Below are positions 23,499 to 35,645 of a stretch of 64,000 nucleotides of DNA, piece after piece. This stretch comes from Candidatus Roseilinea sp. Its GTDB lineage: Bacteria > Chloroflexota > Anaerolineae > J036 > Brachytrichaceae. The stretch spans positions 558,001 to 622,000 of the forward strand of contig BPHV01000002.1 of the NCBI GenBank assembly GCA_026003755.1, in the 5' to 3' direction. A program made the position numbers and the translations under genes. The notes beneath the pieces are model-generated. The model saw only the letters and a program-made list of their open reading frames with translations. It did not search any database and was not told where the DNA came from. Positions within the stretch are counted from its first letter, which is position 1; each line of letters starts with the position of its first letter.

Positions 23499-23574
23499 GG
23501 GTGACTTTCATCACGCCAGGCTGGCGCCAGTATGCACTACTCGGCGCCGTTGCTTGAGTTATATTGCCGGTGGT

Positions 23575-23964
23575 ATGCGCGTGTTGCGCCAGGTGACCTT
23601 GCTGTTCATCGCAGGACTCGTCATCGCTGCGCCGATGTTGTGTTTGCAGTTCTGCGAACTGCAGCGCTACGTTGCCCGTCCGCGGACCTCGCTCGCCGAG
23701 ATGGCCCGCCTGCACGCGCTGAGCCTGTCCGAACGCAAGTCGCAGCGCGCGGATCACCACGGCGACGACCACGCGCCTTTGGTGCGCCTGAAGCAGATGG
23801 TGAACAGCGTCACGGAGTTTCTCCTGGCGCTGGGGGGCGCCATCGGCGCGTCAGTTGCTGTCTTGCGACTCATTGCCCCTCTCTTGCGTCTCAGCCAGCC
23901 GCTCCTGGCTGCGCCCGAACCGCCCCCACGCCTTCGCGCGATCCACCTCACCTTCACATCGTGA
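23575..23964 (+). CDS. small two-TM protein at head of copper cluster
   Basis: 129 aa from the ATG at 23575 (MRVLRQVTLLFIAGLVIAAP). First hydrophobic segment about 6-28 containing CLQFCEL (Cys pair), then a His/Asp-rich stretch (RADHHGDDH, about 62-70) and a second hydrophobic region (FLLALGGAIGASVAVLRLIAPLL). Two Cys and a His cluster in a membrane protein next to CopD and CopC suggest metal handling, but the family is not recognised. It is about 105 bases upstream of copD on the same strand. A shorter protein or a chance ORF is possible. Confidence 0.5.
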   Translation: MRVLRQVTLLFIAGLVIAAPMLCLQFCELQRYVARPRTSLAEMARLHALSLSERKSQRADHHGDDHAPLVRLKQMVNSVTEFLLALGGAIGASVAVLRLIAPLLRLSQPLLAAPEPPPRLRAIHLTFTS

Positions 23965-24069
23965 TGTCCCGCCGGCGCGCCGAGCGCGTGCGGCGCGTTC
24001 GAGGCGCATCACGAATGGCCTTCGCATACACGCGCTTGTGTCATCGCATCTCAGTCTCTAACCGGAGGC

Positions 24070-25116
24070 ATGATCAACGTATTGGAGCCGCCGACGCGGG
24101 CGGTGATCTATGTCGCGCTCATGCTCCTGGTCGGCTTGCCGATCGGACTGGCCGGCGTCGTGCTGCCGGTCTTCCGCCGGCACGGCGCCGTCACCCAGCC
24201 GATCCTGGCGCTTGCGCGGCGCAGTTTGATCGCAGCTTCGCTGGCGATGCTGGTCGGCGCAACGGCCTTCTTCGTCGCGCAAGTCATGCTGCTCGAACTG
24301 GAGTTCAGCAGCGTTACGGAGTGGGCCGAGTTCGTGCAGCGCTCGCTGCTCGGCCAGATGTGGCTGACCCGCGTGGCGCTGGGGTTGATCGCGCTGATCA
24401 TCCTGAAGTTCGGCGCGACTCCGGCAACCTGGCTGGCCGGCTGCGCGCTGATCGGGCTGGCGACGCAAGCCACACTCACCCGCACCAGCCACAGCGCGGC
24501 GATGGGCGAGGGATGGATGCCGGTCGCCGCCGACTTTGCGCACCTCTTCGCCGGCGCATTGTGGGGCGGCGGCTTGATCACCTTGCTCATCGCCACGCGT
24601 TGCGCGCCGCGCGAGGACATCGAGATGATGCGCGCACTGATCGGGCGCTTCTCGCCGTTCGGCATCGCCGGCGTTGCGCTTGCCGCCGGAACAGGCATCG
24701 CGCTCACATCGGTGCACATCGCCGACGCCGAAACGTTGCAGACATCCGACTACGGTCGGCTGATCCTGCTCAAGATCGTCCTCGCAGCAGGCGCCGTTGC
24801 GCTGGCGGCGCTGCACAAGTTCGTCACCCGACGGCGCATGAAGTCCCAGTCCGATGTGCAAGGCTTCAGCCGCACGTTGCTGGCCGAGTCAATCCTGGTG
24901 ATCGGCATCTTCGCCGGCGCGTCCCTGTTGGCTTCCACCTCGCCGCCGCACCATGGGGTAACTCACCAGATGCCCGACGGCTCGACGCACATGATGCTGA
25001 TGACGGATCCGGACTTTCAGCGCGCGTTGCAGATCGCCGCTCTGGCGATCCTCGCAGCGGGCGCCGTTGCGTTCGCGCTGGAATGGCGCGCACGCCCCCT
25101 ACCTCAGAACAGATGA
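24070..25116 (+). CDS. copD: CopD-type copper transport membrane protein
   Basis: 348 aa, about eight to nine membrane segments beginning VIYVALMLLVGLPIGLAGVVLP. The CopD domain is recognisable by LTRTSHSAAMGEGWMPVAADFAHLFAGALWGGGLITLL (about 137-174), whose His residues are thought to coordinate copper, and by RFSPFGIAGVALAAGTGI. A Met/His-rich loop (HHGVTHQMPDGSTHMMLM, about 297-314) near the end may bind Cu(I). The stop overlaps the start of the CopC-MbnP gene (ATGA at 25113-25116), so the two are coupled. The likely role is copper movement across the cytoplasmic membrane together with the CopC domain. Confidence 0.85.
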   Translation: MINVLEPPTRAVIYVALMLLVGLPIGLAGVVLPVFRRHGAVTQPILALARRSLIAASLAMLVGATAFFVAQVMLLELEFSSVTEWAEFVQRSLLGQMWLTRVALGLIALIILKFGATPATWLAGCALIGLATQATLTRTSHSAAMGEGWMPVAADFAHLFAGALWGGGLITLLIATRCAPREDIEMMRALIGRFSPFGIAGVALAAGTGIALTSVHIADAETLQTSDYGRLILLKIVLAAGAVALAALHKFVTRRRMKSQSDVQGFSRTLLAESILVIGIFAGASLLASTSPPHHGVTHQMPDGSTHMMLMTDPDFQRALQIAALAILAAGAVAFALEWRARPLPQNR

Positions 25117-26327
25117 AAAATTCGATTCGACTGGCGGCAGCCTTTGCACTTGCCGCATCGCTCATCCTGACGACGAACCGAACGACCCATGCGCACGCCA
25201 TGCTCGTCAGCGCCGAGCCGGCGCCGAACTCGACCATTGGCGTTTCGCCGAAACAGATCAAGTTGGTGTTCAGCGAAGAACTTCAGGCCGTTGGTCACTC
25301 GATCGCGCTGCTTGACGAAAAGAAGACCAAGATCGAACTCGGCAAGCCCATGCTCGATCCGGAGGACAAGGCCAAGAAGACGCTGATCGCCGAGGTGCCG
25401 ACCACGCTCGCCGTGGGCAGCTATACCGTGGAATGGAAGACGCTATCCACCGACGGTCACACCGAGAAAGGGAGCTTCAAATTCACCCTGGCTGAGATGG
25501 CCGAGATGACCTTGAAGTTCGCTTTCAAAGCAGGCAAAGAGCCGGTCGCCTGCGGCAAAGAGATCAAGAGCCTAGGTATGCGACGCACCACGGCGCAGAT
25601 CATGGATGCGCGCATGTATATCTCGAACATCCGCCTAATCGGCCCTGGGGGCGAAACGCCTTTTGTGCTTGTGCCAGACGGCAAGTGGCAGACCGATCGG
25701 ATCGCGCTGCTGGACTTTGAGGACGGCACCGCGATGTGCAAGGACACCGGCAACGCCGACCTGCGCGATGTGATCGTGGGCAAGGCGCCAGCCGGCAAGT
25801 ACACCGGTATCGTCTTCGACGTGGGCATCCCCTTCGAGCTCAACCACGCCGATGTGGCCGTGGAAGCCGCGCCGCTCAACATCCAGGCGCTGTGGTGGAA
25901 CTGGCAGACGGGCTACAAGTTCGTGCGGATTGACCTGGCCACCAACAGCGCGCCGCCCAACGACAAGTGGTTCATTCACCTGGGCAGCACCGGCTGCGGC
26001 AAGATGGAGAAGGGCCATAGCAGCGATCCGCACGGCATGGCCAATAAGCCGCCGGAGAGGCCCTGCAACAACCCCAACGTGGTCACCATTCGGTTAAACC
26101 GCTTTGACCCGAGCAAGGACCAGATCGTGGCCGACCTGGCCGGCCTGTTGACCAACGTCAACATCGCCCAATCCACGCCCAAGCCGGCCGGCTGCATGTC
26201 CGGCGTGGATGACCCCGATTGCCGCCGGCTGATCCCGAACTTCGGCCTCTCGCTGGCCAAAGGCCAGTGCGTGAATGGCTGCCGCGGCCAGCGCTTCTTC
26301 CGCGTGGAGGCCGCGCCGAAACCCTGA
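25113..26327 (+). CDS. CopC-MbnP fusion: secreted copper-binding protein (four-Cys metallo-mystery family)
   Basis: 404 aa. The true start is the ATG at 25113; the open frame before it is non-coding. Signal peptide about 1-27 ([11 protein letters not shown]...THA), leaving a mature N-terminus HAMLVSAEPAPNS, the N-terminal His of CopC. The second CopC site is STDGHTEKGSF. After residue about 130 an MbnP-like domain follows: MTLKFAFKAGKEPVACGK, ARMYISNIRLI, ALLDFEDGTAMCKD, ALWWNWQTGYKFVRID, HLGSTGCGKM, and late CMSGVDDPDC. In MbnP a Trp is oxidised to kynurenine by MbnH to build a copper site. The partner gene is at 27643. Fusion of the two copper domains in one chain is the unusual point. Confidence 0.85.
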   Translation: MKNSIRLAAAFALAASLILTTNRTTHAHAMLVSAEPAPNSTIGVSPKQIKLVFSEELQAVGHSIALLDEKKTKIELGKPMLDPEDKAKKTLIAEVPTTLAVGSYTVEWKTLSTDGHTEKGSFKFTLAEMAEMTLKFAFKAGKEPVACGKEIKSLGMRRTTAQIMDARMYISNIRLIGPGGETPFVLVPDGKWQTDRIALLDFEDGTAMCKDTGNADLRDVIVGKAPAGKYTGIVFDVGIPFELNHADVAVEAAPLNIQALWWNWQTGYKFVRIDLATNSAPPNDKWFIHLGSTGCGKMEKGHSSDPHGMANKPPERPCNNPNVVTIRLNRFDPSKDQIVADLAGLLTNVNIAQSTPKPAGCMSGVDDPDCRRLIPNFGLSLAKGQCVNGCRGQRFFRVEAAPKP

Positions 26328-26417
26328 TCCGTGATTGACAGGATGGGCGCGCCATGCACCCGTCCTGTCAATCGAGTCCGCAAACTTTTACAAATACCAA
26401 GGAGCGTAGCAACCGAC

Positions 26418-26918
26418 ATGACGAACACAAAGCACTACAAAGGCATCCGATACACGTTGCTGGCCGTCTCCGCCGGCGTTGCGCTGGCGTTGACGGCATG
26501 CGGGGGCGGCTCGGCTCCTGAGCCAACCCAGGCGCCGCCGTCTGCCCCCGCCGCCGAGCCGACCAAAGTGCCCGCCGATGTAGTGGCCAAAGGTAAGGAA
26601 GCCTTCAACAAATACGGCTGCCAGGCCTGCCACGCCATCCAAGGCTTCGCCGAGGGCGCAGTCGGGCCAGCGCTGGACAACCTGTATACCAACGCACAAA
26701 AGACCATCGCCAGCGCCGAGTACAAGAGCAGCGAGGGCAAGGCGACAACGGTCGAGGAGTACGTCCGCGAGTCCATCCTGAACCCGAACGCGTTTGTCGT
26801 CGCTCAGTGCCCCACCGGCCCCTGCCCCAAGGGCGTGATGATCCAGAACTTCAAGGACCAGATTAGCGCATCGGAATTGGAAGCGATGATCGGCTACTTG
26901 ATGACGCTGGGTCGCTGA
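26418..26918 (+). CDS. lipid-anchored monohaem cytochrome c
   Basis: 166 aa from the ATG at 26418. Lipobox LTAC with Cys28, then a Pro/Ala/Thr linker (about 31-52) and a class I cytochrome c domain: VAKGKEAFNKYGCQACHAIQG (haem CxxCH), AVGPALDNLY, and a late Met candidate in GVMIQNFKDQISASELEAMIGYLMTL, where the helix end is typical. An extra Cys pair (QCPTGPCPKGVM) precedes the Met. Likely electron carrier for the di-haem enzyme encoded downstream. AAGGAG lies upstream but 13 bases from the ATG, farther than usual. Confidence 0.85.
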   Translation: MTNTKHYKGIRYTLLAVSAGVALALTACGGGSAPEPTQAPPSAPAAEPTKVPADVVAKGKEAFNKYGCQACHAIQGFAEGAVGPALDNLYTNAQKTIASAEYKSSEGKATTVEEYVRESILNPNAFVVAQCPTGPCPKGVMIQNFKDQISASELEAMIGYLMTLGR

Positions 26919-26957: not shown

Positions 26958-27671
26958 ATGCGCCATCTGCCCCTTCACATGACGCAGCCCAAGCCCATCG
27001 GCTACGCCTTTCTCGCCGCGTTACTGTGCGCCGGGATGGTCGCCGGCGCGCCCTTCGCCGGCCGGTGGGCGCGGCTCGGCATCGCGCGGACGCGCATGCA
27101 CCTGCGCATGGCCTGGCGCGCCATCGCGTCGCTGGCCATGCCGGAAAACCCCGACGCCCCATTGCAGCGAGCAATTCATCTTCGCACGCCATCACGTCCG
27201 CCGAACGTGACCTTCGTGAACGGTCACATGGATCCTTTTACGCTGGATGAGCTGCGCGGCTACGGGGTGTTGCTGTTCTTCGGCACGCTCGACTGCGACG
27301 GGGAGTGCTTGTATGTGCTAAAGCAATTCGCACGCGTGAAAGCCGCGCTCGGCGCGCAGGCTGCACGCGTGCGATTCGTGGTGATCAGCGTGGACAGCGG
27401 GCGAGGCCGCTCACGCTCGCTGCTGCGGCTGGTGCGCTCGTACGACCCGGACTTCATGGCGCTGACGGCAGATGCGCCGACGGTCGTGCCTTTCGCGCAC
27501 AAGCACGGCGTGACCATGCTGCGGTCCCCGCACCACGTCGGCGGCGCGCTCGTCCCGCTCACGCCCTACATCATCTACCTGAACCCGCAAGGGCTTTGGA
27601 CGATGGGCTTCCCGCTAGGCATGTCGGCCGAGGAGATCGCCGATGAGATCATTTACTCGCTGGGGTTGTGA
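26958..27671 (+). CDS. SCO1/SenC-type copper chaperone, membrane anchored
   Basis: 237 aa; an ATG at 26979 would shorten it by seven. One N-terminal membrane anchor (IGYAFLAALLCAGMVAGAPFAG). Thioredoxin-like domain with the SCO copper motif CxxxC in FFGTLDCDGECLYVLKQF, VVISVDSGRGR, and the conserved distal His in RSPHHVGGALVPLTPYIIYLNPQG. SCO proteins deliver copper to cytochrome oxidase or related sites. Here the neighbours suggest copper loading of the CopC-MbnP protein or its partner. The last 29 bases overlap the next gene. Confidence 0.82.
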   Translation: MRHLPLHMTQPKPIGYAFLAALLCAGMVAGAPFAGRWARLGIARTRMHLRMAWRAIASLAMPENPDAPLQRAIHLRTPSRPPNVTFVNGHMDPFTLDELRGYGVLLFFGTLDCDGECLYVLKQFARVKAALGAQAARVRFVVISVDSGRGRSRSLLRLVRSYDPDFMALTADAPTVVPFAHKHGVTMLRSPHHVGGALVPLTPYIIYLNPQGLWTMGFPLGMSAEEIADEIIYSLGL

Positions 27672-29229
27672 AGCCTTGCGCCGCTCGCCCGGCGCGCTGA
27701 TGATTGCGCTGGCCCTGGCGTGCATCGGTTCGGGCTTGATCGCGATGCTCCAGCCACAGCCGGCCGTCGCATCGCCGCGCGCGTGGGTGTGGGCTTTGCC
27801 TTCGCACGTGCCGCCGCCGCGCGTGCCGGAATGGAACCCGATGACGCCGGAGAAGTTCGAGCTGGGCCGCCACCTGTTCTACGACGCGCGTCTCTCCGGC
27901 AACGGCAGGCAATCGTGCGCGACATGCCACCAACAGCGCCTCGCTTTCACCGACGGCCTGCCCCAGAGCATCGGCAGCACCGGCGAGATTCACCCGCGCA
28001 ACGCGCAGTCGCTCGCCAACGTCGCCTGGTTCTCAACGCTGACGTGGGCCAACCCGCTGCTCACCGAGATCGAGAAGCAAATCCCGATCCCGATGTTCGG
28101 CGAATTCCCGGTCGAGCTGGGCATCACCGGCAAAGAGCAGGAAGTGCTCGACCGCTTCCGCGCCGACCCGCAGTATCGCCGAATGTTCGCGGCGGCCTTC
28201 CCCGGCGAAGCCGAGCCGATGACCTGGAAGAACATCACCTATGCGTTGGCGACGTTCATCCGTGGCCTCACCTCCTTCGATTCGCCCTACGATCGCTACC
28301 TGGCCGGCGACCAGACCGCGCTCAGCCCGTCCGCCATCCGCGGCATGCAGATGTTCTTCTCCGAGGATTTAGAGTGCCATCACTGCCACACCGGCTTCAA
28401 CCTGAGCGCTTCGACCACCTTCTCCGGCGCAGTCTTCATCGAGCGGCCATTCTTCAACACCGGCCTGTACAACATTGACGGCAAGGGCGCCTACCCGCCA
28501 GACAATGAGGGGGTAAAGGAATTGACCAACGACCCGACCGACATGGGGCGCTTCCGGCCGCCGTCGCTGCGCAACGTGGCGCTCACCGCGCCTTACATGC
28601 ACGACGGCAGCATAGCCACGCTAGAAGAAGTGATCCGCTTCTACGAGCGCGGCGGGCGCAAGATCACCAGCGGCCCATACGCCGGCGATGGGCGGCTCAG
28701 CCCGTTGAAGAATGGCCTGGTGTCCGGCTTCACGCTCACCGATGCGCAGCGGCGAGACCTAATCGCCTTTTTGGAGAGCTTGACGGATTGGAATTTCGTC
28801 ACGAACCCGCGCTTCAGCGATCCGTTCGCGCCGGCGTCGGCGGCGCAGGCCACCACGACACCGCGACCGGACGCAACGCCGGTAGCCGTTGCGCCATCGC
28901 CTACTCCACCGCCGATCTTCAGCCGGCAGGTGTATCGCGCGCGCCTGAACGCCGTCCTGACGGACCTCGGCGCGCTGAGGACGTGGGTGCGACGCGGCCA
29001 CCGCGCCGAGGCGCAGCGCTGGGCGCGGCAGGTGCACGATCGCCTACATGCACTGCGCGCGACCTCGCATCACCTCGGGGTCGGCGCCGCGCATGACCGC
29101 GCCGAGGCGCACCTACACGGCCAGGTGCTCGCCCGGCTCACATCGGAGGATGCCCGCCCAGCAGCGATCATCGCGGCTATCCGCGACCTGGAAGCTGTGC
29201 TGCGCACGATGGCGCAGGCGGCCGGCTGA
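27643..29229 (+). CDS. MbnH-like di-haem cytochrome c peroxidase-family enzyme with C-terminal extension
   Basis: 528 aa. N-terminal hydrophobic anchor (ALMIALALACIGSGLIAML). Two haem motifs: SCATCHQQRLAFTDG and ECHHCHTGFNLS. MauG/MbnH features include ELGRHLFYDARLSGNGRQSC, RNAQSLANVAWF, LNIDGKGAYPP-type GLYNIDGKG and FRPPSLRNVALTAPYMHDGSI. In the MbnP/MbnH pair this enzyme makes the kynurenine of the copper site; a CopC-MbnP gene is two genes upstream. After about residue 395 there is a Pro/Thr linker (ATTTPRPDATPVAVAPSPTPPP) and a 110-residue helical domain not found in the core family and not recognised. It overlaps the SCO gene by 29 bases. Confidence 0.85.
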   Translation: MRSFTRWGCEALRRSPGALMIALALACIGSGLIAMLQPQPAVASPRAWVWALPSHVPPPRVPEWNPMTPEKFELGRHLFYDARLSGNGRQSCATCHQQRLAFTDGLPQSIGSTGEIHPRNAQSLANVAWFSTLTWANPLLTEIEKQIPIPMFGEFPVELGITGKEQEVLDRFRADPQYRRMFAAAFPGEAEPMTWKNITYALATFIRGLTSFDSPYDRYLAGDQTALSPSAIRGMQMFFSEDLECHHCHTGFNLSASTTFSGAVFIERPFFNTGLYNIDGKGAYPPDNEGVKELTNDPTDMGRFRPPSLRNVALTAPYMHDGSIATLEEVIRFYERGGRKITSGPYAGDGRLSPLKNGLVSGFTLTDAQRRDLIAFLESLTDWNFVTNPRFSDPFAPASAAQATTTPRPDATPVAVAPSPTPPPIFSRQVYRARLNAVLTDLGALRTWVRRGHRAEAQRWARQVHDRLHALRATSHHLGVGAAHDRAEAHLHGQVLARLTSEDARPAAIIAAIRDLEAVLRTMAQAAG

Positions 29230-29370: not shown

Positions 29371-32300
29371 CTAGCGCTCGATTGCGAACGCCGCGCCGTC
29401 GCTCCGCCCGAATACCTCGGGGAAGTAGGTCTGCTCGGCCGAGGCCGGCATGACCTTGAACTGGCCGGCGATGCTGGGCCGGATGACGTAGGTGTATTCG
29501 TACGTGCCGGCGGGCAGGTAGCTGGCGAAGACGGCCATGCGGTCGTCGTAGATCTCCCGGTGGGTGAAGTACCACCAGCCCCAACCCATCTTGCTGCCAA
29601 AGGCGGGCGCCCCTAGCAGGTCGTCCTGAGCCAGTGTTTGACTAGTGCGCAGCGAGGTGTCCACCACCTCGGCGCCGCTCGGCAGTGGGTCGGTGACGCG
29701 CACATAGTACAGGTCGCTCGGCGCGACGATCGTCAGCCGCACGCGCACGTTCTGCCCGATCTTCGCGCCGGCAATGGCCGGGCAGGGCTGATCCGGCGCC
29801 GGCGCGCAGTCGGCCAGCTCATACTTGCGCGCGATCACGATGCCGCGATTGACAGCCGGCGCCGAATCGGCGGGCAAATAGGCGCGCAGGCGCGCGGTGT
29901 AATACAGGCGTCCCTCGCCTGCGCCGCGCTCGAAGGCCAGCTCGTTGGCCTGCGCACGCAGCAGGTTCACGACGGTGACGAACGCCTCCGCCGACTCGCC
30001 TTGCGGATTCGCCTGGCCGCGCAACAAGCCTTGGTCGTTCAACGTGACGCGCCAATCGAAGGCGCTGCTGCGCTCGCCGGTCGCTTCGATCCAAGCGGCA
30101 AAGGCGACGATCGCCCATGTGGTTTCCTGCGTGCTGGACCAGCCGCTGCCGGCGCGCGCCGCCATCAGCCAGCGCACGGCGCCGGGCGCGAGTGCGTTGC
30201 GCGGTTCGAGCCGGGCTAACGCTGCCAGCACGATGGCCGTGCTGCGCGTGTCGCTGAAGAAGTTGGCCCAGTCGCGCTCGCGCTCCTGCCACGAGACGCC
30301 GGTCGCGCTGGGGATTGCCGCAGACTGGATGTCCGCCAGCAGCGTCTTGATTCGGCTATCGCCGGGGTTCACCTTGTCGAGCGCCATGGCCAGCAGCGCC
30401 TGGCCATAGTGGCTGAGCTTGGCGCGGATCTCGTAGAGCGCGCCCAGCCGGCCGCCGTCGCCGCGGCCGGCTTCGGCCTGCACGAACAAGATGTAGGCCT
30501 GCCGATTGGCGGCCGTCGCGTCGGCCAGCGCGCTGGGCGGTTTGAGCTGCTCGCTCAAGTAGTTGTGCGCGCGGTTCAGCGTGCTTTCGTCCACCAGGAA
30601 GCCGGCCTGCCGTGCGCGCGACATGGCCAGCACGACATGGGCGCTGATGAGCGGGTCACTCGCGCCGCCGCTCCACCATCCCCAACCGCCGTCGCTGTTT
30701 TGCTGACTGTAGAGGCGTTGCAGCATTGCTGCGACGTTGTTCTGCAACGTGGCGGGGGCTTCGGCCTGGATGCCGGCCTGCGCCAGCGCCAGGCGCACGA
30801 TCAAGCGTGAGGCCGTCCAGTCGGCGCTCTCGTAGGGATGGGCTTCCAGCGCCTCCACGCCCTTCGCCGCAGCAGCGCCGAGGCCGGTATCCACGCGGAC
30901 GGTCAAATCGCCCTGGCCGGTGTCCAACCGTGGCGGCAGCGCAATCAGCTCGAGTTTACGCCCCGGCTCGCCCAGGTCGCCCGCTGTGCCAACCGTCTCC
31001 GGCGCGGCATAGCGCAGGATGGGAATGCCGTTCGGCACGCCGAAGACGCTGGGCTGCGCGCTATCCTGCAAGCCGCCGCCGGACACCGTCATGGTGATCT
31101 CGGACGCGGCCGCTGCGCCGACCGACGGCTCTTGCACGGTCACCGTCCAATCCACGCGCGCCGTGCCGCCGGCCTTCACGTTGACCCGCTGGATGGCGCT
31201 CCCCCCAACGAGGGTGAGGCCGGTGGAGACGAAGGCGACCTGCGCGTCGAGGTCGGCCGTGGTGTTGTTGTTCACCACCGCGCCGATGGTGACCGTGTCG
31301 CCGGCGACGAAGAAGCGCGGGGTCACCGGTCGCACAAGCAGCGGTTTGGTCGAAACGATCTCGTTGATTGCCTCGCCGACGCGCGTATCGGGGGTGAGGG
31401 CGCGCGCAGTCATCCGCCACGTCGTCAGGTTGTCGGGCAGGGTGATCTGAACGCGCGCCCGGCCATCGGCGCCGGTCTGCACCACGGCGTTCCAGTAAGC
31501 GGTGTCCTTGAAGTTGCGGCGGGTGAATAGCGCGTCGGCGAGCGCTTCGCCGCCCCCGCCGCCGCCTTTGCCTTCTGTCGTCGCCTTTGCGGTGATGCGA
31601 TCCACGTTCACGTTGAGCGTGCTCGCCGTGCGCACGCTGAGCGGGCGCCGGCCGTAGAACGCGTCGAGGATCGGTTCGACGTTCGCATCGGCCAGGCTGA
31701 GCACAGCTTTATCCACCAGGGCAAGCGAAAGTTCGGCCTGGACTGGGTTGCCGGCCACGTCGGTGACGCGAATATCATAGGTGACCGTGTCGCGCGGGGC
31801 ATATTGCGCCCGGTCAGGCGTGATCTCGATGTTGAGGGCGAACTGAGTCGGCTCCACTGCGAACTGGGTGTAACCCAAGCGGTAGGCGGGCACAGGGTTG
31901 TCGCCGCCCACCCCCTTGACGAGCATCACCGAGACGTAGACGTTCGGCGCGAAGCTCGGCTCGATGGGGATGTCGAGCACATCGCTGTTGCTGCGCAAGG
32001 TGAGGGTCTTGCGTTGGATGAAGCCGCCGCGCTCGATGGTGAGTAGCGCCGTGGCGGCGCCTTGGAAGGGCGACGGCACCAGCACGCGCGCCGTCTCGCC
32101 CACTTGATAGCTGCGCTTGTCGGCCTTCAGCTCGATGCGGTCGTTGTTCTCCACGCGCCAGGCCACATATTCGCCGGCCGACGAGACATAGACCGGCACG
32201 CCGGCCGCTACGGCAGGCTCTGCGCCGGTGGGGCTGGCAGCGACGATGTGATACTCGCCGCCTTCTTGCGGTCGGAAGCCAGCCATCGCCCGGCCCTCAG

Positions 32301-35300
32301 CGTCGGTGGTGACGGCGATCGAGAACACCTCGGTGTCGTTGGGCACAGAGGTGTAGTACAGACCGCCGTAAGGATCCTGCTCCTGCGTAGTGAACCACTC
32401 GCGGCGGTTGAATGTCACGACGACTGGCCGGTTCGGCACGGGCTGGCCGTCCCAGTCTACCGAGATTACCTCGGCCACGACTTCTTCGCCGGAAGCAAAG
32501 ACATAGCCGCGCGGCGCAATGCCGATGTAGGACGAGCCTTTGTGCGCGACGACGCCGACCCGCGCCGAGACGCTCTGGTCATTCACATCGGTCACGCTCA
32601 CCTCCAGGGTGAAGCGGGCGCTGGTCTTGCGCTTGCTGAGGTCGGCCGGCAAGCGCAGCGTGAAGCGGCCCTGCGCGTCGGTGACGCCCTCGCCGCCCGC
32701 GATTAACTCGCTGAAGCCGAAGAAGCTGCGCAGGCTGTAATCGAAGTCGCCAAAGGTATAGCCGCCTGCGCCGGTGTAGCGGTCGAAGAAGTAATCCGTC
32801 GCAAGCAACGACCAGCGCACTTTCGCACCCGCGACGCTCCCGCCGAAGAAATATTTGGCGTCGAAGATGGCGTTGATCATCTCGCCATCGAGGTAGTCGG
32901 TCTTGTCGGTCGCAGCCGTCACCTCGAATTCCGGCGCGCGATACGCAGCGACGAGGAACGACACACCGTAGTAGCTGCACGGCGGATCATCCTTGCCGGG
33001 ATTTGGCCTGGGGACACAGACCTGGATGTAGTACTGGCCGGTGGCGGCGCCGTTGTCCAGCGCGAACTGGCCGTTGAAGCCGCCGTTGGCGTCCAACGAC
33101 GTGGTCGCGCTGAACACCTGTTGACCTTGGCCGTTGAAGATGGCCAGGCCGACTTGGGTCACGTCGGCCGGCACGGTGTAGCGCGCGTCGTCGTCGCGAC
33201 GCACGATGCCCTTATAGAACACCATCTGGCCGGGGCGATAGATCGGGCGGTCGGTGTAAACGTAGGCGAAGAACGGCTCGGCCTGGTAGCGTCCGGGCAG
33301 GTTGAAGTCGTAGATGTCAATGCCGTAGGACATTTCGCTCCAGACGACGCCAAACGGGCCTAATCCGCCCGGCTCGCCCACCAGCGCGTATAGCGTCTGA
33401 TAGGGCCGGTAGCTTTCAGGGAAGGTGACGAAGGCTTGGCCGGCTTCTTCGCCGGCGCCGGTGACGCCGGAAGCGACCTCGGCAAACCCAGCGTCGCGAA
33501 AGGAGACGGCCACGCCCGGCAGGGGCGCGCCCGTATTCAGGTTCGTCACCCAGGCCAACCCTTCGCGGTCGCCGCGTTTTAGGCCGATGTGCACGTTCGT
33601 GACGATGAGGATGTGGCGCACAGGCTGGAATTCGGGGTCGAGGGCGACCAACTCCGGCGCGCTCACTTCGAGCAGGTAGATGCCGGTCGGCAATGCGCCG
33701 CCGTCCTCGCCGAGCGAGACCTTGTAGTTGGCCGATTCGTTCAAGCCGGCCGATGTCATCACCGACCACTGACGCACCGTCTGATCAGCATTGGGCTTGA
33801 AGGCGCGCAGGTTTTCATACGCGTTGAACGCACCGGTGAGGTCGTAGAACTGTTGCGGCGTGAGCGACGCCAGCGCAAAATCCAGCCGGGTGACGTTGCG
33901 ATAGAGCACGAACAACTGCGTGGGCTGCGCGGCGTTGTATGTGCCGACCAATCCGTTGCTCTGCACGATCACCCGCGGCGGCAGCGGGCCGGTTGAGAAG
34001 CGCACCTCGACATCCTGCCCGATCTTGGCGCCGTAGATGTCGGTCGCTTCGCCGCCGACGCGCGCGCGATAAACCGTGGATGGTTTGAGGTTGACGTTCA
34101 GCGAGAACTCGTTGCTGAACTCATCATAGTAGCTGTATACGCCGGTCAGCGTGACCGGCGGATCGAACGATAGGTTCGCGATGACGGTAGGCACAGACAT
34201 CGGCGCGCTGAAGCGGATGGAGAAGCCGCCGTCGGCCGGAGCGCGATCCTGACCGTTGGCTGGGCGCGTACTCACGACGGACGGCGCGGGGACAGCTCGG
34301 AAGGTGGTGGTCACTTCTTCGAACGTCGCGCCCGATCCGATAGCAGCGCGCGCGCCGGCCTTCACGCGCACGGTGTAGGTCTGCCCGCGCTGATAATCCT
34401 CTGCGGGCACAAAGGCCATCACCTCGCCGGCGGCTTGCGGGGGCGGCATGGGCGGTGATTCGCCGGGTTGTTCTGGTGTGAACGCATCGGGGGGCGGCTC
34501 ATCGGCCCAGCGGAACGCCCCGCGCACCGGCGGCTCTATGACGAACGCGGCCTCGGCGCTGGCGCGATCCATCTTCTGGCTGAAGGTCACGCTGATCGGT
34601 TGGCGCAGGCCAATGCCCTGCGCGCCGTCAGACGGCGCGATGAATTTGACGACCGGCGCGGCCACGCTGAACGTCCAAACGTAGTCGCGCTCCAGCAAGG
34701 CGCCGGTGGCGTCTCGCAGGCCGGCGGCGACGCGGCCTTCGTAGATCGCGCCGGCTTGCAGCGGCCGTGAGGGCTGAAAGACGTAGATGCTGGTATTGAG
34801 CCACTGCCCACGGCCAGGGATCGGCGGATTGAACGTGACAGGCTTAGGCAGGCCGGCCTGCTGGTCGAGCAGGGTGAGCGGAACCACCGGCCGGTTGAAC
34901 AGCACGGTGATCGTCGCGTCGGCGGCGACATCCTGCGCGTTGGCGGCCGGGATCGTCTGGGCGACGGCCAGCGCGCCGATGGTGTTGACGGTGAACGACT
35001 CCGGCCGGGCCAGCCCCAGGCCCTTGGCGCTCCGCGCGTCGGTCGAAAGCGAGACCGTGTAGCGCGCCGCTCGCGCCCAGTTCTGGCTCGGCTTGAACGC
35101 AGCGCGGTTGTCGCCCATCCATTCGAGTCTGCCGGCGACGGCGACGCCATCGCTGCTCTGCACGCGCAGGGCGCGCTCTACCGAGCGCCGGTCCATCGGC
35201 TGGTCGAAGATCAGCTCGATGGGCTTGTCCACCGGCAGTTCCTCACCCCGGACAGGAATGCGGTCCACCAGAATGGGGTTGGCGAGCGGGCGTGGGGTGG

Positions 35301-35460
35301 GCGATGGGCCGGGCGTGGCCGACGGGTTGATCTGAACGGTGACCTGCGGCGTGACATTCGGCTCGGTGGTGAGCTCGGGTGCAGGCTGGCTGCATCCGGC
35401 GAGCGTGATCGAAGCAACGAGCAAGAGGCTTACGAGGCGGACGAGTTGATGCTTATGCAT
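29371..35460 (-). CDS. giant alpha-2-macroglobulin-like lipoprotein, thioester absent
   Basis: 2029 aa from the ATG at 35460. Lipobox LAGC, Cys23, then a Thr/Pro linker. Bacterial Ig-like/MG domains follow in series (repeated VRFSAPMSVPTV, VTFSQKMDR type segments), then MG domains with FFAYVYTDRPIYRPGQMVFYKGI, the macroglobulin landmark of YfaS-type proteins, and the complement-like region (NLTTWRMTARALTPDTRVGE). The helical TED domain is present (NSDGGWGWWSGGASDP), but where YfaS-type proteins have a CxEQ thioester after PYG, the sequence is HPYESADWTASRL (near residue 1543), so covalent trapping is not possible. The C-terminus ends in a macroglobulin receptor-like domain. Probably a periplasmic or cell-surface protease-trapping or scaffold protein. 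Confidence 0.88.
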   Translation of the reverse strand: MHKHQLVRLVSLLLVASITLAGCSQPAPELTTEPNVTPQVTVQINPSATPGPSPTPRPLANPILVDRIPVRGEELPVDKPIELIFDQPMDRRSVERALRVQSSDGVAVAGRLEWMGDNRAAFKPSQNWARAARYTVSLSTDARSAKGLGLARPESFTVNTIGALAVAQTIPAANAQDVAADATITVLFNRPVVPLTLLDQQAGLPKPVTFNPPIPGRGQWLNTSIYVFQPSRPLQAGAIYEGRVAAGLRDATGALLERDYVWTFSVAAPVVKFIAPSDGAQGIGLRQPISVTFSQKMDRASAEAAFVIEPPVRGAFRWADEPPPDAFTPEQPGESPPMPPPQAAGEVMAFVPAEDYQRGQTYTVRVKAGARAAIGSGATFEEVTTTFRAVPAPSVVSTRPANGQDRAPADGGFSIRFSAPMSVPTVIANLSFDPPVTLTGVYSYYDEFSNEFSLNVNLKPSTVYRARVGGEATDIYGAKIGQDVEVRFSTGPLPPRVIVQSNGLVGTYNAAQPTQLFVLYRNVTRLDFALASLTPQQFYDLTGAFNAYENLRAFKPNADQTVRQWSVMTSAGLNESANYKVSLGEDGGALPTGIYLLEVSAPELVALDPEFQPVRHILIVTNVHIGLKRGDREGLAWVTNLNTGAPLPGVAVSFRDAGFAEVASGVTGAGEEAGQAFVTFPESYRPYQTLYALVGEPGGLGPFGVVWSEMSYGIDIYDFNLPGRYQAEPFFAYVYTDRPIYRPGQMVFYKGIVRRDDDARYTVPADVTQVGLAIFNGQGQQVFSATTSLDANGGFNGQFALDNGAATGQYYIQVCVPRPNPGKDDPPCSYYGVSFLVAAYRAPEFEVTAATDKTDYLDGEMINAIFDAKYFFGGSVAGAKVRWSLLATDYFFDRYTGAGGYTFGDFDYSLRSFFGFSELIAGGEGVTDAQGRFTLRLPADLSKRKTSARFTLEVSVTDVNDQSVSARVGVVAHKGSSYIGIAPRGYVFASGEEVVAEVISVDWDGQPVPNRPVVVTFNRREWFTTQEQDPYGGLYYTSVPNDTEVFSIAVTTDAEGRAMAGFRPQEGGEYHIVAASPTGAEPAVAAGVPVYVSSAGEYVAWRVENNDRIELKADKRSYQVGETARVLVPSPFQGAATALLTIERGGFIQRKTLTLRSNSDVLDIPIEPSFAPNVYVSVMLVKGVGGDNPVPAYRLGYTQFAVEPTQFALNIEITPDRAQYAPRDTVTYDIRVTDVAGNPVQAELSLALVDKAVLSLADANVEPILDAFYGRRPLSVRTASTLNVNVDRITAKATTEGKGGGGGGEALADALFTRRNFKDTAYWNAVVQTGADGRARVQITLPDNLTTWRMTARALTPDTRVGEAINEIVSTKPLLVRPVTPRFFVAGDTVTIGAVVNNNTTADLDAQVAFVSTGLTLVGGSAIQRVNVKAGGTARVDWTVTVQEPSVGAAAASEITMTVSGGGLQDSAQPSVFGVPNGIPILRYAAPETVGTAGDLGEPGRKLELIALPPRLDTGQGDLTVRVDTGLGAAAAKGVEALEAHPYESADWTASRLIVRLALAQAGIQAEAPATLQNNVAAMLQRLYSQQNSDGGWGWWSGGASDPLISAHVVLAMSRARQAGFLVDESTLNRAHNYLSEQLKPPSALADATAANRQAYILFVQAEAGRGDGGRLGALYEIRAKLSHYGQALLAMALDKVNPGDSRIKTLLADIQSAAIPSATGVSWQERERDWANFFSDTRSTAIVLAALARLEPRNALAPGAVRWLMAARAGSGWSSTQETTWAIVAFAAWIEATGERSSAFDWRVTLNDQGLLRGQANPQGESAEAFVTVVNLLRAQANELAFERGAGEGRLYYTARLRAYLPADSAPAVNRGIVIARKYELADCAPAPDQPCPAIAGAKIGQNVRVRLTIVAPSDLYYVRVTDPLPSGAEVVDTSLRTSQTLAQDDLLGAPAFGSKMGWGWWYFTHREIYDDRMAVFASYLPAGTYEYTYVIRPSIAGQFKVMPASAEQTYFPEVFGRSDGAAFAIER

Positions 35461-35645
35461 AGGTTCGCATGAATGAAACACTCCCCTCTCAACAACGCGT
35501 CGTGCGCTTAGAAGCTCGGTAAAGATGCGCCTTCAATAAGCCAATAGCCACGCATCGCTGCTGTAGGCAAACAGATTATCCCCCAAAAGCGGGACGATTC
35601 AAGCGCTTGTGCAACGCCGCGTCTTTCATCCGCTAGAATGCGCTG

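Follow-up and report, generated by a model that had tools for sequence, protein, structure and literature searches.

Two kinds of copper protein are among the closest parallels to the locus reported here. The first is the MbnP-MbnH pair of Methylosinus trichosporium OB3b (PDB 7l6g and 6e1c). In the 2021 work on Methylosinus MbnP, the first Trp of a WxW motif is reportedly converted to kynurenine, on which copper binding is said to depend, and a His and a Met reportedly serve the Cu(I) site. The second is CopC of the C0-1 class (5icu, 6nfq), found with the membrane protein CopD. Its Cu(II) site, according to the available part of PMC12362106, consists of the N-terminal His and a DxH motif. The same partial text describes YcnJ of Bacillus subtilis, a CopC-CopD-YtkA fusion; in this multi-domain copper protein, CopC serves as the outer module and binds Cu(II). 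On leader ORFs, the excerpts available of PMC9973294 describe CutF, which is exported by Sec, has CxxxC and a proline-rich C-terminus and, as a nascent chain, senses copper and controls how the following gene is translated; CutF-like proteins are there termed scarce in Chloroflexota. Operons headed by DUF2946 ORFs include MbnPH-like, SCO and CopC genes, and the portion available of the source (PMC9426467) gives MbnP and CopC as separate neighbours of the DUF2946 genes, not fused.

The window analysed is a 64,000-nt stretch of Candidatus Roseilinea sp. (contig BPHV01000002.1, positions 558,001 to 622,000). It carries six genes in the order leader ORF, copD, copC-mbnP, cytochrome c, SCO and mbnH (Table 1), followed by a large convergent gene (29371-35481, minus strand). 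The initial annotation had proposed that CopC and an MbnP-like domain share one secreted chain and that an MbnH-like gene lies in the same cluster. Both proposals were borne out: the two domains of the putatively secreted chain exceed their Pfam cut-offs, the MbnP part also exceeds that of TIGR04052, and the mbnH product scores far above the TIGR04039 cut-off. The overlapping copD, the SCO and cytochrome c genes and the leader ORF are additions to that annotation. The copD-like product matches PF05425 (58.4 bits, cut-off 32.1) and, at 106.5 bits, stays under the 195 required for the NF033808 equivalog. The same six-gene order is kept in six other genomes of the genus (L024-L029), with mbnH cut by a contig end in L025, and L004 has the first five genes before its contig ends.

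Table 1. Features of the copC-mbnP locus (positions in the window).
Feature	Position	Strand	Remarks
Candidate copper-sensing leader ORF	23575..23964	+	129 aa; CxxxC (LCLQFC), His-rich middle, C-terminal ...EPPPRLRAIHLTFTS
Hairpin over stop codon of leader	23957..24017	+	arms CGTGATG/CATCACG
copD-like membrane protein	24070..25116	+	348 aa; last 4 nt overlap the start of the fusion
copC-mbnP fusion	25113-26327	+	one open frame, ATG 25113 to stop at 26327; 404 aa
Putative Sec signal peptide of fusion	25113..25193	+	residues 1-27, ends T-H-A; inferred cleavage before His28
CopC domain	25194..25490	+	residues 28-126, PF04234; His28 / Asp114 / His116
MbnP domain	25503..26306	+	residues 131-398, TIGR04052 / PF20243
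WxW motif	25896..25904	+	W262-N263-W264, inside ALWWNWQTGYKF segment
Cytochrome c lipoprotein	26331..26918	+	likely start ATG 26418, lipobox LTAC; PF00034 30.5 bits (cut-off 21.3)
SCO1/SenC-type protein	26958..27671	+	CxxxC (CDGEC); PF02630 45.1 bits (cut-off 22.8)
MbnH di-haem enzyme	27643..29229	+	TIGR04039 506.2 bits (cut-off 362.85)

Like the OB3b system, the locus has a whole MbnP domain with WxW and conserved Cys, His and Met residues, and an mbnH gene nearby; unlike it, the MbnP of the fusion has no signal of its own, forms the C-terminal half of a CopC chain and belongs to a copD-SCO-cytochrome c set. The CopC half shares its fold and the N-terminal His plus DxH with the C0-1 class, and here too a copD gene adjoins, by overlap; however, this CopC neither ends nor joins CopD but runs on into MbnP. 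YcnJ is alike in using CopC as the outer module, whereas its partner domains are CopD and YtkA, not MbnP.

Profile searches recovered both domains on the chain: CopC (PF04234, E 1.4e-20, 74.6 bits, cut-off 23.3), then a gap of about four residues, then a complete MbnP domain (PF20243 over residues 131-363, E 2.5e-40, 138.8 bits, cut-off 27; TIGR04052 over residues 132-398, 256.3 bits, cut-off 140). The CopC half remains below the stand-alone CopC equivalog NF033814 (79.7 bits against a cut-off of 95), so that by profile the chain carries a CopC domain and yet is not classed with that equivalog. MbnP 7l6g is the best PDB sequence match (E 2.3e-36), with CopC entries next. An AlphaFold model built with 64 sequences has a mean pLDDT of 88.7 and a pTM of 0.82; only in the signal peptide and one loop (299-306) do segments fall below 50. 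This model is confident even though five stand-alone CopC rows of alignment A2 are misaligned onto the MbnP part. Foldseek with the model placed six 7l6g chains on top and CopC next; the matches listed in the structure search barely test parts of the fusion outside residues 25-128, save that the 7l6g match spans 128-404 (VIA-align Z 32.7, rmsd 2.3, 260 residues). A 931-aa ORF at 23532-26327 was rejected as a separate protein, being merely the upstream open extension of the fusion's own frame.

The CopC half aligns with CopC structures at Z of about 16-17 over residues 28-128 (6nfq: Z 16.4, rmsd 1.3 over 97 residues), and these alignments start at residue 28, which corresponds to residue 1 of 7bk5. 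The N-terminal His attributed to CopC in the initial annotation is thus located at His28, directly after the putative Sec signal. As judged from sequence, this half has the features of the C0-1 class, a putative mature N-terminal His and DxH; its only Met residues are M30 and M80, with no Met-rich Cu(I) motif. In the alignment with 6nfr, Phe replaces the His of DxH, and the Foldseek matches include the CopC mutants D83A and D83N, which fits the DxH positions being site residues.

On the whole we favour, with moderate confidence, the reading that the fusion is an exported two-site copper protein. Its CopC half would capture extracytoplasmic Cu(II) and work with CopD, whose gene overlaps; a role in serving CopD is suggested because the function of B. 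subtilis YcnJ needs the His residues of CopC (PMC12362106, in part). MbnH would oxidise Trp262 of the MbnP half to kynurenine, enabling that half to hold one Cu(I). SCO and cytochrome c may provide the thiol or electron chemistry by which copper is reduced and passed on, the fusion would hold both sites together for handover between the domains, and the CutF-type leader probably sets expression by copper. The copper would go to uptake and to the assembly of cuproenzymes such as haem-copper oxidase. According to the available part of PMC8446752, respiration in Roseilinea uses haem-copper reductases of the A and B families, and these are a plausible destination.

A second reading, which we regard as possible although we do not lean towards it, is that the fusion couples expression and localisation only, CopC and MbnP binding copper independently and without exchange. 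The distribution of the fusion bears on this. Among 41 genomes searched, it is present in eight of nine Candidatus Roseilinea genomes and in none of 32 other relatives. The ninth genome of the genus (G008) does not count as fusion-free: its contig ends just upstream of SCO, leaving the place unassembled, and it has mbnH and SCO. A class sample gave six fused genomes of 249, all of the genus, and two others with stand-alone MbnP; in a phylum sample by family, MbnP occurred in 5 of 301, two of them of the genus and three stand-alone. Among loci from named genomes (80 of 240 relatives), six are fused, all from genomes already among the eight above, and 74 lack CopC in the same chain. Elsewhere, no fusion was found in the genomes with a match in Myxococcota (80/193), Cyanobacteriota (11/146), Bacteroidota (4/247), Deinococcota (23/111) or, with CopC-only matches included, Pseudomonadota (18/349) and Acidobacteriota (13/199); for some genomes of Myxococcota and Pseudomonadota at most 5 or 9 candidates were scored, and a very divergent CopC half could escape. 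The survey called for by the initial annotation therefore found the fusion to be uncommon and, in the data searched, confined to one genus, from which it follows that the two halves usually work without it.

Several candidate fusions were rejected in this survey. Three weak Myxococcota matches (G664, G629, G686) are coiled-coil lipoproteins with a divergent MbnP-like domain and not CopC; L114, a lipoprotein with 137 aa ahead of its MbnP domain, shows an upstream start artefact and no CopC by Pfam; and the long N-termini of L070, L078, L100, L110, L111 and L113 contain no CopC. The 127-aa N-terminus of L109 gave no CopC by phmmer, the sole check applied to it, and the Acidobacteriota match G1341 (23-159) is a 193-aa frame with an internal stop. 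Meanwhile, other MbnP arrangements were observed. A Chloroflexi bin encodes a 569-aa tandem MbnP-MbnP protein (L043, 3520-5226), with two MbnP stretches by Pfam. Some Myxococcota have a second MbnP-like lipoprotein that is divergent, carries an SWMWF motif and has a coiled-coil-like N-terminus (L127, 5701-6849 and 4622-6016; L129, 5362-6477 and 4277-5365; L128, 3701-4849); in L127 and L129 this second gene adjoins a divergent MbnH-like enzyme and faces the canonical pair.

The sister lineage also speaks for coupling without exchange. On a tree of 59 MbnP domains the seven fusion sequences group as a single clade (100/100) with L040, of the same family, as its sister (100/98), and the fusion, as read from this tree, arose once. 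The cluster of the sister genus (L040 / L030) has the same MbnP, MbnH, CopD and CopC functions adjoining, but as separate genes: in L040 mbnP, mbnH, copD and copC are four genes on one strand, and its MbnP has a lipoprotein-type signal. Because L040 keeps them as adjacent separate genes, the fusion probably joined two halves that already stood side by side. CopC lies within the examined flanks of six of the 74 non-fusion loci (L040, L048, L053, L056, L064, L071). In L053 (3411-5795 and 5881-6783) a CopC-CopD fusion directly precedes mbnP-mbnH, and in L056 (4606-6858), a Deinococcota MAG, copC, copD and mbnP stand in series; these two arrangements are further links between the CopC/CopD and MbnP systems.

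Against coupling alone, the fusion retains intact sites in all eight genomes with the place assembled, His28, Asp114 and His116 being present in every fusion sequence, and the linker is only about four residues. In addition, the CopC half is under purifying selection: its dN/dS is 0.07-0.18 in six of seven comparisons; the seventh, to L034, gave 0.40 at a dS of merely 0.04. Points against the two-site reading that we favour are that this half is less conserved among fusions (76-96% identity) than the MbnP half (87-96%), that it scores below NF033814 and that the fusion occurs in one genus alone.

The direction of transport is a separate matter, as the gene set gives no decision between uptake and detoxification. 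The fusion could be a copper-resistance or sequestration protein, made at high copper, that binds excess outside the cell, and the leader ORF is pertinent here. Located 105 nt before copD, it is shorter than 150 aa, has a Sec-type N-terminus (by eye) and a Cys motif, ends in a C-terminal proline-rich motif (PPPR) and stands upstream of a copper gene, as in the CutF-like layout. It occurs in all eight genomes with the place assembled (66-85% identity), with PPP(R/K) in 8/8 and CxxxC in the seven not cut at a contig end. The leader of the window matched no Pfam or NCBIfam family (one Oleosin hit at E 3.8), and since no DUF2946 (PF11162) match appeared at E up to 10, we call it CutF-type by layout and do not class it as DUF2946. 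Its position before a copper gene set agrees with the DUF2946-led operons in the available part of PMC9426467. According to the excerpts of PMC9973294, the R. capsulatus CutF leader raises expression with copper, as resistance would have it, while the CruR leader represses with copper. Also at odds with resistance, YcnJ (CopC-CopD) serves copper limitation in B. subtilis (PMC12362106, in part), and Pfam, NCBIfam and gene-order comparison identified neither an efflux pump nor a multicopper oxidase among the six genes. We therefore consider a resistance role unlikely.

The hairpin over the stop codon of the leader is conserved and folds in all seven sequences tested, with weak statistics (z -2.1 in the window and between -0.6 and -1.8 in the remaining sequences). 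The GGAGG before copD lies outside it, and the whole intergenic stretch there has a folding z of -0.57; the hairpin is suggestive only. Similar candidate leaders, with a metal-binding motif and C-terminal PPPR, precede stand-alone mbnP genes of other Chloroflexota (L040, 3463-4119; L044, 5390-5788; L048, 1102-1680; L050, 5339-5794; L052, 4973-5803), the printed part of L050 having C...H instead of CxxxC.

It could also be argued that the MbnP half here lacks the kynurenine modification and serves a structural or a different redox function instead; for MbnP of Chloroflexota, we know of no modification data. The conservation of the site makes this quite improbable. W262, W264, H245 and H289 are invariant in all 59 MbnP sequences aligned, and W262 is presumably the kynurenine site of the fusion. 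The Trp-rich segment noticed at the outset is thus present. The four-Cys pattern given with it was too low a count: the Cys are there, but the MbnP part has eight (147, 209, 295, 318, 361, 370, 386, 390), the first six of which are invariant in 59/59. Met362 is found in 55 of the 59 and in every fusion. Furthermore, mbnH lies in the same gene set and is present in all nine genomes of the genus; the product in the window has CxxCH at 92 and 245 and matches PDB 6e1c at E 8.2e-132. This MbnH also has a His-rich, helical-looking C-terminal extension (28840-29229, after about residue 400), which is absent from L029 and has no match in Pfam or among PDB sequences.

That two genes were joined by an assembly or frame artefact has next to no probability, as the same continuous frame is intact in all eight genomes with the place assembled and the other seven fusions are 83-96% identical to that of the window (L034, NK_OTU-006: 96% over residues 1-404), so the fusion is neither chance nor assembly error.

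The initial annotation knew of no such fusion, and we found none in the literature searched, where a single paper names both MbnP and CopC; as that literature did not include the paper on the MbnP structure or the review of the CopC family, an earlier description is possible. None of its parts is new in itself; what is new is the domain architecture of the joined chain, which belongs to known copper systems. Beyond the exported two-site protein that we favour, a bolder version, which we put forward as speculative and rather doubtful, is a self-contained module for copper acquisition: a single polypeptide, matured by MbnH, would relay copper internally, reducing it and handing it over between the Cu(II) site of CopC and a Cu(I) site that depends on kynurenine, and would feed CopD, with a leader that senses copper as a nascent chain for its switch.

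With the fusion, capture of Cu(II), holding of Cu(I) and transfer could be tested together in a single protein, which may be sturdy enough for structural work because a hot spring is the source of at least one named relative (PMC8446752, in its available part). The joining of CopC and MbnP in one lineage suggests that the two, which are normally separate, act together. The fusion also ties MbnP-MbnH pairs to CopC-CopD; together with the overlapping copD and the SCO gene, it is "Rosetta stone" evidence that the kynurenine-dependent MbnP works with CopC/CopD.
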